Positions 41,915 through 63,999 of a stretch of DNA of 64,000 nucleotides are shown in pieces. Each line of letters opens with the position of its first letter. The first letter of the stretch is position 1. The DNA comes from Rubeoparvulum massiliense (GTDB taxonomy: Bacteria > Bacillota > Bacilli > Rubeoparvulales > Rubeoparvulaceae): assembly GCF_001049895.1 (NCBI RefSeq), contig NZ_CVPE01000006.1, forward strand, positions 704,503 to 768,502, written 5' to 3'. The translations under genes were made by a program, and so were the position numbers. Below the pieces are notes generated by a model. The model had not been told where the DNA came from, ran no database searches, and was given only the letters and a program-made list of their open reading frames with translations.

Positions 41915-42528
41915 TCTTTATCGACACCCACTCCACCATGAATAAGTGCATCGATGCGTTGACTTAATAGTTCAGTAAGGAGATGTAATTGTTCCTTTCC
42001 ATCTAAATCTTCATGTTCTGTAATAAAGGCATCTACATCGATGGCTGGCCCAAAGTGGACATAGACAGGCTTAAATAAGCGATAAGGTCCGATGATCCCT
42101 ACGGGAACTAGCATTGATCTAGATTTTAATGCAAAAAAGGCAGCTCCTGCCTTCATCTCTTGGAGATCCTCTGTCTTACTGCGATGACCTTCTGGAAAGA
42201 TCCCGATCACATGTCCTGATTTCAATAGTTTTAATGTGGTCTTGATCGTTGAAGCTCCCACTGCGTCGCGGTTAACCGGGAAGGCACCTACATGGGGAAG
42301 GAGTTGCTTAATAATCGGGAGGCGGAACAGTTCTTGCTTGGCCATGAAATGAACCTTTCGAGATGAGGTTACACCAACCAAGAGTGGATCACGATTGCTG
42401 ATATGATTCGCACAGAGCAAAGCAGAGCCTTCTTGAGGGATATTTTCAATCCCCCTCACTTTATATCGAAAAAAAAGCAAGAAGTATCCTTGGACGATCC
42501 GTTTTGCAAAATCGTAAAAGCTCATCAT
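41911..42528 (-). CDS. plsC: 1-acyl-sn-glycerol-3-phosphate acyltransferase
   Basis: Second acylation in phosphatidic acid synthesis; 205 residues. The acyltransferase boxes are LCANHISNRDP (H-x4-D, near residue 39), GAFPVNRDAVGAS and IFPEGHRSK near 105. A short hydrophobic N-terminus anchors it. Four-base overlaps with cmk upstream and with the small membrane gene downstream make a tightly coupled cmk-plsC-orf63 unit. The pair cmk-plsC is common in Firmicutes. Confidence 0.92.
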   Translation of the reverse strand: MMSFYDFAKRIVQGYFLLFFRYKVRGIENIPQEGSALLCANHISNRDPLLVGVTSSRKVHFMAKQELFRLPIIKQLLPHVGAFPVNRDAVGASTIKTTLKLLKSGHVIGIFPEGHRSKTEDLQEMKAGAAFFALKSRSMLVPVGIIGPYRLFKPVYVHFGPAIDVDAFITEHEDLDGKEQLHLLTELLSQRIDALIHGGVGVDKE

Positions 42529-43202
42529 TCTTGCCCTACTTTCTGCTGATAGTGAGCGATAATTTGCGATACCACTTCCTCCAAGGTGAAAGCGGTGGTA
42601 TCAATGAGGATGGCATCATCCGCTTGAATTAATGGGGAGGCTGCTCGCTCTCGATCCCTCTGGTCACGGACCTGAATCTCCTGATAGATCTCTTGATAAG
42701 ATGGCTTCTCACCTTTTGCAAGCAATTGTTCATAGCGGCGACGTGCTCGCTCTTCTACAGAAGCAGTAAGGAAAATTTTGCAGCAAGCATTAGGTAGAAC
42801 ACGGGTACCAATATCACGACCATCCATTACTACGTGTCCATCTCTAGCCATCTCGCGTTGCTTTTCTACCATCAATTGGCGAACACGCGGATGCTTAGCG
42901 ACTGTAGATGCATGACGTGATACAAGCTGGCTACGAATCTCTTCGGTGACATCTTTTCCATTTGCAATGACCCGTTGTCCATGCTCATCGTGCTTCAGCG
43001 TGATGGTTGATGCAGTAAGCAACTGAACTAACTGCTCCTCTGACTCTAAATCACACTGGATCTCCAGTGCAAGTAAGGCTAAGGCACGATACATCGCGCC
43101 CGTATCTACGTAAGTCATATGTAAGGATTTTGCAACCTGTTGAGCAACTGAACTTTTTCCAGCCCCAGCAGGGCCATCAATGGCAATATTATAATCTCCC
43201 AT
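42525..43202 (-). CDS. cmk: Cytidylate kinase
   Basis: Phosphorylates CMP and dCMP; 225 residues from MGDYNIAIDGPAGAGKSSVA. P-loop near residue 9, YVDTGAMYRALALLAL near 31, VMDGRDIGTRVLPNA near 100 and the lid region RDQRDRERAASPL near 174. ATG 43202 has AAGAGGTG five bases upstream; the frame is open to 43229, which lies in a terminator-like hairpin. Its leader from the promoter at 43331-43360 runs through that hairpin. Confidence 0.96.
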   Translation of the reverse strand: MGDYNIAIDGPAGAGKSSVAQQVAKSLHMTYVDTGAMYRALALLALEIQCDLESEEQLVQLLTASTITLKHDEHGQRVIANGKDVTEEIRSQLVSRHASTVAKHPRVRQLMVEKQREMARDGHVVMDGRDIGTRVLPNACCKIFLTASVEERARRRYEQLLAKGEKPSYQEIYQEIQVRDQRDRERAASPLIQADDAILIDTTAFTLEEVVSQIIAHYQQKVGQE

Positions 43203-43225
43203 AGCACACCTCTTGAAGGAAAAAT

Positions 43226-43251
43226 ACAAAAAAGCAGGGGATTCCTGCTTT
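43226..43251 (-). terminator. Terminator-like hairpin in the cmk leader
   Basis: Minus strand: AAAGCAGG, a 5-base loop, CCTGCTTT and further T. It is downstream of a good promoter (43331-43360) but only about 25 bases upstream of the cmk ATG, so it is placed as an attenuator, or else it ends the PilZ-gene transcript with read-through into cmk. Confidence 0.65.
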
Positions 43252-43330
43252 ACACCAAGATTATGATCTATTTATTTTAGTATAAAGAAAGAAAACCGTG
43301 CGGCCAACATCCAACTATTTAATTACTAAC

Positions 43331-43360
43331 ATCTTACCATAATTTTTCATGCCATTGCAA
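43331..43360 (-). promoter_or_regulatory. Candidate sigma-A promoter for cmk
   Basis: Minus strand: TTGCAA (-35), 18-base spacer, TAAGAT (-10). Predicted start near 43324, giving a leader of about 120 bases that contains the hairpin at 43226-43251. Confidence 0.5.
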
Positions 43361-43405
43361 TGTTTATTCCCTTTTCTCTATCTGTGCCATCATTAATGTA
43401 TCCCT

Positions 43406-44080
43406 TTAGCGTTCCAATTCCCGCATTTCTAGCTGTCTCTCGAAACAGTACCGTACGATAAAGGTTTGGTCCTTTTCAGACACCTTGGTAATTTTTACAG
43501 ATATTTTTCGCTTGAGCCCCTTCTCTGCTGGAGGGATAATCCGAACCACCTCTCCTGTAAAATGGGCATGCTGAACCTGGCCATGGAGGGGTAAAAGCAA
43601 CCACCCATCGATGAGGTCATGCTCACGAATCGGCATTTTCTCATCACACCAGCAGGCGAATCCTCCACCACTCACATCTAAGGTATGAGTAAGGCATTCT
43701 ACTTCTGATCGTTGAACAAGATGGAATGCAACCTCTGTTTCTGCAGGAACACGGACAAAATTGCGCCGTTGCACACGGGAAATCGTATCAAGAGCAGGTA
43801 AAGCCAATACCATTAATGCAATATTTTCATTACGACGACCGATGACCCGTGTATGAAAAATATATTTGGAGCCATCATGGCCAAAATACCAAACAATCAA
43901 CGGAGTCCCATTAGGGAACCACTTCATTTTGCCCGTGCGCTCAGCGATGGGCATTTCGATCAATAATTGGTCCTCCGTACAATCTGCTACCCGCGTCTTA
44001 TGTAGCAGATTCTCTGATTGCTTAGCACCATTCTCTTCCATTGGCTGAAGGAATAATATCTGATTTATCTCAGGATACAT
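43406..44080 (-). CDS. ypfA: PilZ-domain c-di-GMP binding protein YpfA
   Basis: 224-residue YcgR-like protein: N-terminal beta domain, then PilZ with the c-di-GMP-binding RRNFVRVP (RxxxR, near residue 112) and DVSGGGFA (D/N-x-S-x-x-G, near 147). In B. subtilis YpfA (DgrA/MotI) slows flagellar rotation when bound to c-di-GMP. Both binding motifs are intact. It is the receptor half of a c-di-GMP circuit; a GGDEF domain is encoded at the right end of the window. Confidence 0.9.
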   Translation of the reverse strand: MYPEINQILFLQPMEENGAKQSENLLHKTRVADCTEDQLLIEMPIAERTGKMKWFPNGTPLIVWYFGHDGSKYIFHTRVIGRRNENIALMVLALPALDTISRVQRRNFVRVPAETEVAFHLVQRSEVECLTHTLDVSGGGFACWCDEKMPIREHDLIDGWLLLPLHGQVQHAHFTGEVVRIIPPAEKGLKRKISVKITKVSEKDQTFIVRYCFERQLEMRELER

Positions 44081-44156
44081 ACCCCATCTCCCCCTATGTC
44101 TGGCTGTATATCCCTATCCTACATTGAATATTGGTACTATTATACCACGTAACCTC

Positions 44157-45521
44157 CTATAAAAGATCATCCCAATTCTTCAGTTCAATAACCTCTTCTT
44201 CATCTCCATTATGGGCATTGATGTAGATTTGATAAGTAACTTGGTTCATCGATCCCGTAAATTCATAGCAGAGAACCTCTTTCCCAAGCTCATTTTCGAT
44301 GACAACCAAGCGAGATTCCTCAATGGAAAGACGTGGATTTACTTCTTTCTTAGCTTGGGTAAGGGTTAGCTTTGCTGGAGGTAGCTGACGTGAATGGTGA
44401 GAGATCGCGTAGGGTTCACCCTGATAACCGATGATGGATCCATCATCTAATGCAACTTTTACAGTTACTTCATCTGGATAGATCAAAACATCATTGATGG
44501 TCTCAATAAAGATAAATTGTGCTACATTGCCATACTGATGACTCTTAATGACTTGCATCTCAGAAAATCCACGGGCGGCTAGGAACTGCAAGGCTTTCTG
44601 ATGTGCTTGCTCTAAATTAAGCCGTGGCTCTCCAATCTGGCGATGATTCATCATCCAGAGAATTTGTCCGCCTCGCTTTGCAACATCCAATTGGAGCAGT
44701 GAACCATTCGCTCCATTCTTCGGCTCTATGCGAACATGATAACTAGGAACCAGTTTTCCTTCTCCATTTTCTGTGGTTGTCACTTGATATTGATCTTTCT
44801 TCTTAATGGCCATAAATTGTAATGCTCGTTCCTCTACTTTTGTTTTATCCATCGTGGGACCTTTCATATTCCGTTCCATCTTTTTCTGCAAACGTTCTTT
44901 GCTATTGTCACCATTGGGACCCCAATCGATTTTATCTCCATCTGCTACATGCTTCTCAATGGTATTAAAGCCATCAATAATGGTATTGTCCTTTGGCTCC
45001 TTGTTGGAGATCAACAATTTTTCGGTATCTAACCAACGAATATTGTCACTCAAAACCTTTCCTTGAACCTTTTGTAATTCATTTTTAATCTTGGTTGCTG
45101 ACCCATAGAGCTTTTGTAATGTTTCATATTCTTTTTTCGTTAAAGGCTCTTTACTTAGGTCTCGTACTGCTACCTGATAGGTAAAATTGGATGTTCGGGT
45201 CAAAAAGTCTTCTGTCTTCTGAAGTGGTAATAGGCCAAGGGGTAATGCCCCCACATCATTATGAGCTGTATGAGAAATTCGCCAAATATCCAACATGGAT
45301 TTTGATAATTTCCGTTCGGAGTTGACAGCAAGTGAGCGACCAATTTCACTCTGGATCTTATCGACACGATTACTCAATGAATGGAAGGCACTTTGGTATT
45401 GGTTTTCTGCCTGTACGAGAATCTTATCTTTTTCTTGCTTCTCCCCATAACCCCAGTATGACATGATTAGAAAGCCAATCACAAACACAGGGAAAAAGAT
45501 GCTAGCTACATTACGATACAT
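44157..45521 (-). CDS. ypeB: Germination protein YpeB
   Basis: Spore protein needed for SleB localisation and stability; 454 residues. One N-terminal membrane anchor (VASIFFPVFVIGFLIMSYWGYG), a helical N-terminal domain, and C-terminal PepSY-type repeats (for example EQAHQKALQFLAARGFSEMQ and LTLTQAKKEVNPRL). In B. subtilis sleB and ypeB form one operon; here sleB is 2.2 kb away on the other strand, with prsW and ansA between. The ATG has GAGGAGG upstream. Confidence 0.95.
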   Translation of the reverse strand: MYRNVASIFFPVFVIGFLIMSYWGYGEKQEKDKILVQAENQYQSAFHSLSNRVDKIQSEIGRSLAVNSERKLSKSMLDIWRISHTAHNDVGALPLGLLPLQKTEDFLTRTSNFTYQVAVRDLSKEPLTKKEYETLQKLYGSATKIKNELQKVQGKVLSDNIRWLDTEKLLISNKEPKDNTIIDGFNTIEKHVADGDKIDWGPNGDNSKERLQKKMERNMKGPTMDKTKVEERALQFMAIKKKDQYQVTTTENGEGKLVPSYHVRIEPKNGANGSLLQLDVAKRGGQILWMMNHRQIGEPRLNLEQAHQKALQFLAARGFSEMQVIKSHQYGNVAQFIFIETINDVLIYPDEVTVKVALDDGSIIGYQGEPYAISHHSRQLPPAKLTLTQAKKEVNPRLSIEESRLVVIENELGKEVLCYEFTGSMNQVTYQIYINAHNGDEEEVIELKNWDDLL

Positions 45522-62502: not shown

Positions 62503-62622
62503 ATGTCATCAATTGAGCCTGAACAATTGGCAGATGCCTTTTTCATTGTCCTTTTCTTATTACTAGCCATTTTCGGCGAAACTTCTCCTCCTGCAGTGGG
62601 TGATGTAATTATTGAGCTATGA
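62503..62622 (+). CDS. 39-residue membrane peptide
   Basis: ATG 62503 has GGGGTG six bases upstream, 12 bases after the previous stop. The product has one central hydrophobic helix (LADAFFIVLFLLLAIFGE, residues about 9-26) with acidic ends and few other charges. Its last 6 bases overlap the end of the histidine kinase gene on the other strand. The short length leaves room for chance, but the spacing, ribosome site and clean helix suggest a real small protein. Confidence 0.5.
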   Translation: MSSIEPEQLADAFFIVLFLLLAIFGETSPPAVGDVIIEL

Positions 62623-63999
62623 GCCTTCCTCTTGAAGCATCCCGCGATCCTTCGTTTTGATCAGTGGTAAATAAAGACGAAATGTAGTTCCTACGCCTAA
62701 TTCACTTTCAACCTCAAGATCTCCATCATGATCTTGAATAATTTTATATGAAATCGGTAGTCCAAGACCTGTTCCCTCTTCCTTTGTTGTATAAAAAGGG
62801 TGAAAGATCTTCTCGGTCTCCTCCTTCGTCATCCCACGGCCTGTATCCGCGATTTCTACCATACCCTTTCCATTCTTCTCTCCTAAGCGGATCGTTAGGA
62901 TCCCATTGGCCTCCATGGCATCTAAGCCATTTTTCACCAAGTTTAAAATCACTTGGACGATTTTATCTTTATCTACACACACCTCTAAGGAGTGTAGGGC
63001 TGGTTGAATCACTAATTCATGTCCTAGGTAGACGGCTTGGGAGAGCGTGAGCTGATGGACACGGTCTACACATTCTTGGAGTGTACAAAGGCGAAAGTTT
63101 TTTGGTGCTGGCTTTGAAAACTGTAGAAATTCTGAGGTTAATTGATTGATACGATTAATCTCAGCCATGATTACCCCATACCAGGGCTCGATTTGATACG
63201 AATTGGATTTGGCAATTTGTACAAATCCCTTGATGGCTGTTAGTGGATTACGAATCTCATGAGCCATACCAGCAGCTAGTTCCCCTACAACACGTAACTT
63301 TTCAGAGCGCTGCATATCTTCCTCACGCTTCAACCAGTTCGCCCGTTTCATTAAGAAAAGCTTCTGTTCTGTAATGGTGATCAATTCTTGCTTGTTATCC
63401 GCCTCTTCTGGAAAAAGCGTATATCCATAGGTGATAGGCATCCCCATGATCATCGGCGTTTCACTTTCGAGAATCGGGGCCAGTCGTTCTTCAAGATCAT
63501 CTTCTTCCATCACACGTAAGACCACTGCAAATTCGTCGCCCCCATACCGCGCAATGCAATAGGCCTCAGGAAAAAGCTTCGTTAATTGATTAGAAAAGTC
63601 CTTCAGTAGATGATTCACACCCTCAAAACCTTGCTCCATATTCAATGACTTAAGATTGGTACAATCAATGAAAAGTAGTACAAACCGAGTGTCTCGCTCA
63701 ATGAGTCGATTTAAGCGCTGGTGTAAAGAAGCAAAATTAAGTAAGCCGGTGAGTGCATCATGGGTAAATAGATGATGATTCTCTTCCTTTACCTCAATAT
63801 TCTCTTTAATAATTCTCTTAAGATAGTGGTGAAAGCTAATATACCAGATAAATAGGATCAGCTGCATAAAAAGTGTAAGTGGATGAAAAAGATGAGAAGT
63901 ATCACTAATGAAGGTTATCAGTAAGTAGAGAAGTAGATGAAGGATGGCGAGCTTCCATAAGGGTATTTTTAACCTGAATTCCATCGTCAGCTTACTCAT
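62617..63999 (-). CDS. Sensor histidine kinase with N-terminal GGDEF domain
   Basis: 460 residues to ATG 63999, one base from the window edge; the true start could be further right. Two membrane helices (about 14-31, 38-55), then a GGDEF domain (about 78-222, motif YGGDEF 153-157), then HisKA (phospho-acceptor H247 in GMAHEIRNP) and HATPase (NLVKNGLDAM, DTGRGM, FYTTKEEGTGLGL). The kinase half resembles Bacillus sporulation kinases. In the GGDEF half the metal Asp (D112) and base-contacting Asn (N120) remain, but the usual Asp after Asn is Met and GH/GD are changed; no I-site RxxD. It may bind nucleotide rather than make c-di-GMP. No response regulator is in view. Confidence 0.9.
   Translation of the reverse strand: MSKLTMEFRLKIPLWKLAILHLLLYLLITFISDTSHLFHPLTLFMQLILFIWYISFHHYLKRIIKENIEVKEENHHLFTHDALTGLLNFASLHQRLNRLIERDTRFVLLFIDCTNLKSLNMEQGFEGVNHLLKDFSNQLTKLFPEAYCIARYGGDEFAVVLRVMEEDDLEERLAPILESETPMIMGMPITYGYTLFPEEADNKQELITITEQKLFLMKRANWLKREEDMQRSEKLRVVGELAAGMAHEIRNPLTAIKGFVQIAKSNSYQIEPWYGVIMAEINRINQLTSEFLQFSKPAPKNFRLCTLQECVDRVHQLTLSQAVYLGHELVIQPALHSLEVCVDKDKIVQVILNLVKNGLDAMEANGILTIRLGEKNGKGMVEIADTGRGMTKEETEKIFHPFYTTKEEGTGLGLPISYKIIQDHDGDLEVESELGVGTTFRLYLPLIKTKDRGMLQEEGS

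Follow-up and report, generated by a model that had tools for sequence, protein, structure and literature searches.

A GGDEF domain placed before the kinase core of a probable sporulation-type orphan histidine kinase in Rubeoparvulum massiliense and of its relatives in other Bacilli

One end of a 64,000-nucleotide stretch of the Rubeoparvulum massiliense genome (contig NZ_CVPE01000006.1, positions 704,503 to 768,502; hereafter, the window) raises the question of what a GGDEF domain does when it stands between a membrane region and a histidine kinase core. The reading favoured here, tentatively, is that of an orphan polytopic kinase directed at Spo0F, in which the GGDEF domain would serve as an allosteric input, plausibly binding a guanine nucleotide, and not as a cyclase. 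The open reading frame proposed in the initial annotation of the window is present, on the minus strand, and comprises the following features:

62617..63999, minus strand: visible part of the GGDEF-histidine kinase gene, 460 aa and a stop codon; the gene continues beyond the window end to about 64230 or 64251 (window-equivalent)
63820..63999, minus strand: residues 1-60 of the visible protein, which form the C-terminal portion of the membrane region; its N-terminal hydrophobic segments fall beyond the window edge
63340..63765, minus strand: GGDEF domain, residues 79-220 (PF00990, E-value 1e-17, 64.9 bits against a cut-off of 23.8, profile positions 2-157 of 161)
63529..63543, minus strand: GGDEF motif, residues 153-157
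63112..63285, minus strand: HisKA domain, residues 239-296, with the phosphoacceptor H247 at 63259-63261 and the specificity residues T-A-G-F-Q-I
62662..62973, minus strand: HATPase_c domain, residues 343-446 (PF02518, E-value 4e-26)

Followed into the genome sequence, the frame stays open over 550 codons and reaches 77-84 residues beyond the window end, with two candidate TTG starts, one at window-equivalent position 64251 (L009:10754), which gives 544 aa, and one at 64230 (L009:10733), which has GGAG 8 nt upstream and gives 537 aa. The full-length kinase is about 537-544 aa long, and its membrane region is longer than the window shows, comprising about 140 residues with several hydrophobic segments; four segments are clear in the hydropathy profile, and up to six can be read by eye. 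The membrane segments of its relatives, also judged by hydropathy, mostly number three to six. Because the window edge cuts the protein, the anchor of two membrane helices described in the initial annotation is an artefact of truncation and is ruled out.

The assignment of a GGDEF motif and of a HisKA-HATPase kinase with H247 to this protein was confirmed, all domains scoring above the Pfam cut-offs. Residues 79-220, which the profile search places in the GGDEF family, are GGDEF by sequence and not by chance, since this part alone matches diguanylate cyclases in a phmmer search against solved structures (4urs, 2e-14). HisKA (PF00512) and HATPase (PF02518) are both above cut-off, and the phosphoacceptor His and the N and G boxes required of a HisKA-type histidine kinase are all present (H247, NLVKN 353, DTGRG 385, GTGLGL 409). 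A Pfam scan of this kinase and of family proteins, in which ten of the ten family proteins scanned carry the domains above gathering cut-offs, gave no match to a PAS domain in the window kinase. In tDGC (4urs) and PleD, with which the window copy shares the GGDEF fold by sequence, the domain lies at the protein end, whereas here it precedes the kinase.

Relatives with the same domain order were recovered at 28-39% identity by a full-length search of 61 genomes (that of R. massiliense and 60 relatives). A survey profile of the GGDEF-to-H-box region, run on 400 sampled Bacilli genomes, found the order of multiple transmembrane segments, GGDEF, HisKA and HATPase in 58 of them, with one copy each, and in 31 of 145 genera, which rules out a unique chance fusion or an assembly artefact. 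On about 380 sampled genomes from the other classes of the phylum the profile gave no match, a result that leaves room for unrelated GGDEF-kinase fusions elsewhere. Distant matches in other phyla (L047-L119) were checked, and none has a GGDEF domain and such a kinase core in one frame. Those members that carry a name belong to Paenibacillus species and to one unclassified Bacillales genome; P. silviterrae is the nearest of these (49% over the best segment). Since the order recurs across Bacilli genomes with a conserved spacing from LTGL to HEI, 156-169 residues in every member measured, it is, on this sequence comparison, established and maintained in Bacilli. The initial annotation had allowed that this might be a common and already characterised Bacillus kinase; this applies in part, as Bacilli carry the architecture fairly often, whereas no account characterising it was found. 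A literature search for a GGDEF-bearing sporulation kinase or for this domain order, which reached a minority of subscription journals, returned no description, and no known Spo0F kinase with such a domain is reported in PMC6136694 and PMC12826061, where the term GGDEF occurs 0 times. The kinase type itself is known; its combination with a GGDEF domain, on a Spo0F-type orphan, is apparently undescribed within the literature searched.

The family splits into two clades, A (15 sequences, including that of the window) and B (33 sequences). Independent fusions in the two clades were rejected because a kinase-only tree groups them (95/55), a grouping that holds once two apparent outsiders are explained, namely L050, in which the domain is absent, and L015, in which the frame is split. 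A formal test performed without L050 and L015 rejected a single clade, as is expected when true members are omitted. One origin of clades A and B has moderate, not strong, phylogenetic support. In L015 (minus strand, G048:C1, about 2570262-2573975) a frameshift splits the member into a membrane-GGDEF part, with the motif EGDCF, and a kinase part; the split may be genuine or may reflect a sequencing error.

The function of the GGDEF domain was approached through its active site, which in the window copy includes the following positions:

63640..63666, minus strand: D112 (PleD D327, metal) to N120 (PleD N335, guanine), followed by Met in place of Asp
63613..63615, minus strand: N129 at the position of PleD D344 (guanine contact), Asp replaced by Asn

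Alignment bore out the initial description of this site, in which D112 and N120 are kept, ND has become NM and the I-site is lost (no RxxD); the Asn at the D344 position is a further change, absent from that description. The full GGDEF motif and K218 (PleD K442) are also kept, and the position of R446 is occupied, by residue count, by Trp. The window copy therefore has D327, N335 and the GGDEF motif in common with tDGC and PleD, and differs from them in the missing I-site, in NM for ND and in Asn for D344; in most of its relatives the catalytic residues themselves are replaced.

An alignment of 48 distinct members with tDGC showed the extent of this replacement. Six members, the window copy included, have E as the fourth motif residue, which is replaced in the other 42 (Q in 32, R in 7, K in 2, C in 1); the I-site arginine is absent in 48 of 48; and the Asp following N335 is lost in 47, being kept in a single member. 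Since these losses are family-wide, cyclase activity is unlikely as the selected function, and they support the earlier proposal that the domain is an input to the kinase and not an output or cyclase. The K442 position holds K in 11 members and Q in 37. Most members, on the other hand, retain D327 (42 of the 48), N335 (43) and the third motif Asp (47); the D344 position is occupied by D in 32 and by N in 11.

A guanine and metal site kept with catalysis lost is clear in clade B, where all sequences (100%) have D327, N335 and the third motif Asp and 94% have D344, whereas Gln occupies the fourth motif position in 94% and replaces K442 in 97%. This is the pattern predicted for a site that still binds and no longer catalyses. 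Clade A is variable: only 60% of its sequences have D327 and 67% have N335, and the sub-clade L045/L158-L161 has lost the pocket, so nucleotide binding cannot be the function of the whole family. The nucleotide-sensing role suggested in the initial annotation is possible: the metal and guanine residues are near-invariant in clade B, but they vary in clade A and are destroyed in one of its sub-clades. The window copy, a member of clade A, retains D112 and N120 and has Asn for D344. In Paenibacillus alkalitolerans (L050:5494-6676), the kinase of which nests within clade A on the kinase-only tree, the membrane region and kinase core are homologous to those of the window protein, but the GGDEF domain is absent and the membrane region is joined directly to the phosphoacceptor helix. 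The domain is therefore dispensable, as the membrane and kinase parts of this protein are intact without it. With the site kept in clade B, variable in clade A and gone from P. alkalitolerans, the GGDEF domain is best described as a modulatory module, which one clade conserves and another can do without.

These observations bear directly on the alternative that the kinase is of the same Spo0F type, while its GGDEF domain, now a ligand-free relic, serves only as a rigid element, for dimerisation or spacing, through which the membrane signal reaches the phosphoacceptor helix. The destroyed pocket of the sub-clade and the P. alkalitolerans protein agree with it, as does the faster evolution of the GGDEF part than of the kinase in clade A (median identity 0.34 versus 0.53). 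Against it, the GGDEF part of clade B shows strong conservation (median identity 0.60, versus 0.72 for the kinase), with the metal, guanine and third-Asp positions near 100%, and the window copy keeps its motif, for which a pure spacer would have no need. A relic is on balance somewhat unlikely.

The probable target of the kinase is suggested, indirectly, by its orphan status and its specificity residues. In this genome, which is 97% complete, 15 HisKA matches (PF00512 matches only) and 29 receiver domains were found; judged by coordinates, 12 of the kinases adjoin a receiver gene and a further one is a hybrid that contains receivers itself, which leaves two orphans. One orphan is the GGDEF kinase, with its nearest receiver gene 122 kb away, and the other (L199, G000:C5:464050) is a kinase with multiple transmembrane segments and a PAS domain read by eye from its sequence. 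Only these two among the 15 carry HEIRNPLT..GF.Q. Their specificity residues are TAGFQI in the window kinase and TVGFQL in L199, the latter identical to KinB; in B. subtilis the residues are TAGFQL in KinA, TVGFQL in KinB and TSGFQI in KinC, and those of the verified sporulation kinases are TAGFQL, TVGFQL, TSGFQI and TGGFQL (PMC6136694, Table 1). The 12 receiver-adjoining kinases differ from the B. subtilis sporulation kinases at these residues. Within the GGDEF kinase family, T[AST]GFQ[IL] is found in 43 of 48 members, with TSGFQI in 30.

All verified sporulation kinases are orphans (PMC6136694). The B. subtilis and Geobacillus (PDB 3d36) KinB proteins and KinA to KinE share orphan status, HEIRNPLT..GF.Q and specificity residues with the window kinase; KinB is likewise a polytopic membrane kinase, and 3d36 ranks with the nearest kinase cores of solved structure. 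The difference lies in front of the kinase, where KinA to KinE have PAS or other sensors, or none, and the window protein has GGDEF. An N-terminal PAS domain, which the window kinase lacks, is frequent but not obligatory in Spo0F-directed kinases, and it is not marked for KinB and KinD in Table 1 of PMC6136694. The genome encodes Spo0F (C5:415514, 58% identity to a B. subtilis query sequence), Spo0B, beside obgE and rpmA, and Spo0A. Orphan status, the specificity residues and the presence of these relay proteins make Spo0F the most likely partner of the GGDEF kinase, and the label of a sporulation-type kinase, given in the initial annotation, is upheld on the same grounds. Reading by eye revealed no clear sigma-H site or Spo0A box upstream of the kinase.

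The kinase might instead serve an unlinked regulator of motility or biofilm formation. As no partner gene lies beside the kinase, its partner is assigned indirectly, and other receiver genes without a kinase exist in the genome (for example C6:950105, 128 aa). The match of the specificity residues to KinA to KinC, from which the 12 receiver-adjoining kinases depart, argues for Spo0F, and a different regulator appears unlikely.

The residues of the window copy could also allow residual cyclase activity, since D112, N120, the GGDEF motif and K218 are present among those that a cyclase requires, with Asn at the D344 position and NM for ND. A bifunctional protein, combining a working or weak diguanylate cyclase with the kinase output, would be in keeping with these residues, with the E that the window copy shares with only five other members, and with an organism that possesses a full c-di-GMP network (14 GGDEF and 8 EAL matches), in which a cyclase-like GGDEF protein, L173, also has Asn at D344. 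The three substitutions (NM, Asn for D344 and, by residue count, Trp for R446), the variation of the closest relatives at catalytic sites and the loss of these sites in most of the family nevertheless render it decidedly unlikely. A second non-canonical GGDEF domain of this genome occurs in L178 (G000:C5:118247), a GGDEF-EAL protein with a 1126-aa open frame, where the motif has decayed to FGNRF.

The gene neighbourhood was also analysed. Upstream of the kinase on the same strand lie, outside the window, a gene for a LysM-bearing 5'-nucleotidase of secreted type (L009:10992-12812) and then a YheC/D ATP-grasp gene (L009:13038-14156). Downstream, the genes are convergent and belong to no recognised family. 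Clade B likewise has a YheC/D gene close to the kinase; across the kinase family no conserved partner gene was found. In clade B (L150-L157) the kinase is located between the YheC/D ATP-grasp gene and ywhD; a gene for a penicillin-binding protein often comes next, and WalR/WalK-type genes lie on the other strand at a distance of several genes. The window further contains the following genes:

42525-45521 of the window: ypeB, PilZ (YcgR-type) and cytidylate kinase (cmk) genes in a row

This is the usual order around B. subtilis ypfA/motI. The PilZ protein cited earlier as a possible tie to c-di-GMP signalling is real and of YcgR type, but nothing ties it to the kinase. It is very improbable that the GGDEF domain is a c-di-GMP receptor linking kinase output to the c-di-GMP network, and such a link is not supported: the genome does encode c-di-GMP enzymes and the PilZ protein, and the nearest solved kinases include the c-di-GMP-binding CckA, but that complex is of the CckA ATPase domain, the PilZ gene lies about 19 kb off in an unrelated gene order, and no RxxD occurs in any of the 48 members.

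Returning to the GGDEF domain as an allosteric input, a structural route to the kinase is suggested by an AF2 model of the protein:

63256..63393, minus strand: GGDEF-to-phosphoacceptor helix, residues 203-248, one continuous helix in the AF2 model

In this model (8 sequences, monomer, mean pLDDT 77, pTM 0.41) the last GGDEF helix and the first phosphoacceptor helix form one helix, with pLDDT of 80-93 to about residue 230, then 65 and 46, and low near H247. Because the helix is modelled as continuous, a ligand-induced change in the GGDEF dimer could reach H247 mechanically. In the proposed mechanism the kinase would autophosphorylate on H247 and the phosphate would pass to Spo0F, Spo0B and Spo0A, as orphan status, specificity residues and the presence of the relay suggest. 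The GGDEF domain, acting as an allosteric input and not as a cyclase, would most plausibly bind a guanine nucleotide (GTP), and the bound nucleotide may shift the helix by which the last alpha-helix of the domain continues into the phosphoacceptor helix, so that an internal nucleotide pool would modulate the membrane signal.

Precedents are available for an input of this kind. GTP binding to the inactive GGDEF domains of PdeB, CC3396, RbdA and RmcA controls the adjoining EAL domain, and in RmcA the control by the GTP-bound domain passes through the connecting helix (PMC9061725). These proteins likewise have a cyclase-inactive, regulatory GGDEF domain joined by a helix to its effector, and PdeB has also lost the I-site; their effector is an EAL phosphodiesterase and their GTP binding was measured, whereas the effector in the window protein is a histidine kinase and its GTP binding is putative. 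A decrease in GTP induces sporulation in B. subtilis (PMC5733473). A GTP input is the most attractive hypothesis in view of the inactive-GGDEF precedents, this induction and the continuous helix, but in the case of the window protein its support is only moderate, given the Asn at the D344 position and the variability of clade A.

In the broader and rather unlikely form of this proposal, Bacilli would possess a family of sporulation kinases with a built-in GTP sensor, in which an inactivated diguanylate cyclase domain reads the guanine pool and sets the output to Spo0F. If true, the sporulation-inducing drop in GTP would be tied directly to the phosphorelay. CodY senses GTP. Control of the kinB and kinA promoters by the levels of initiating nucleotides has also been discussed (PMC5733473). 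The explanations on hand for sporulation upon a GTP drop are transcriptional, and a domain of guanine-nucleotide type beside the phosphoacceptor helix would offer a direct post-translational route. Even without GTP sensing, a domain of a second-messenger enzyme would have been recruited as a kinase input, and the family, with a uniform Gln replacement in one clade, a degraded site in another and no domain in one species, offers a natural series on how enzymes become sensors.
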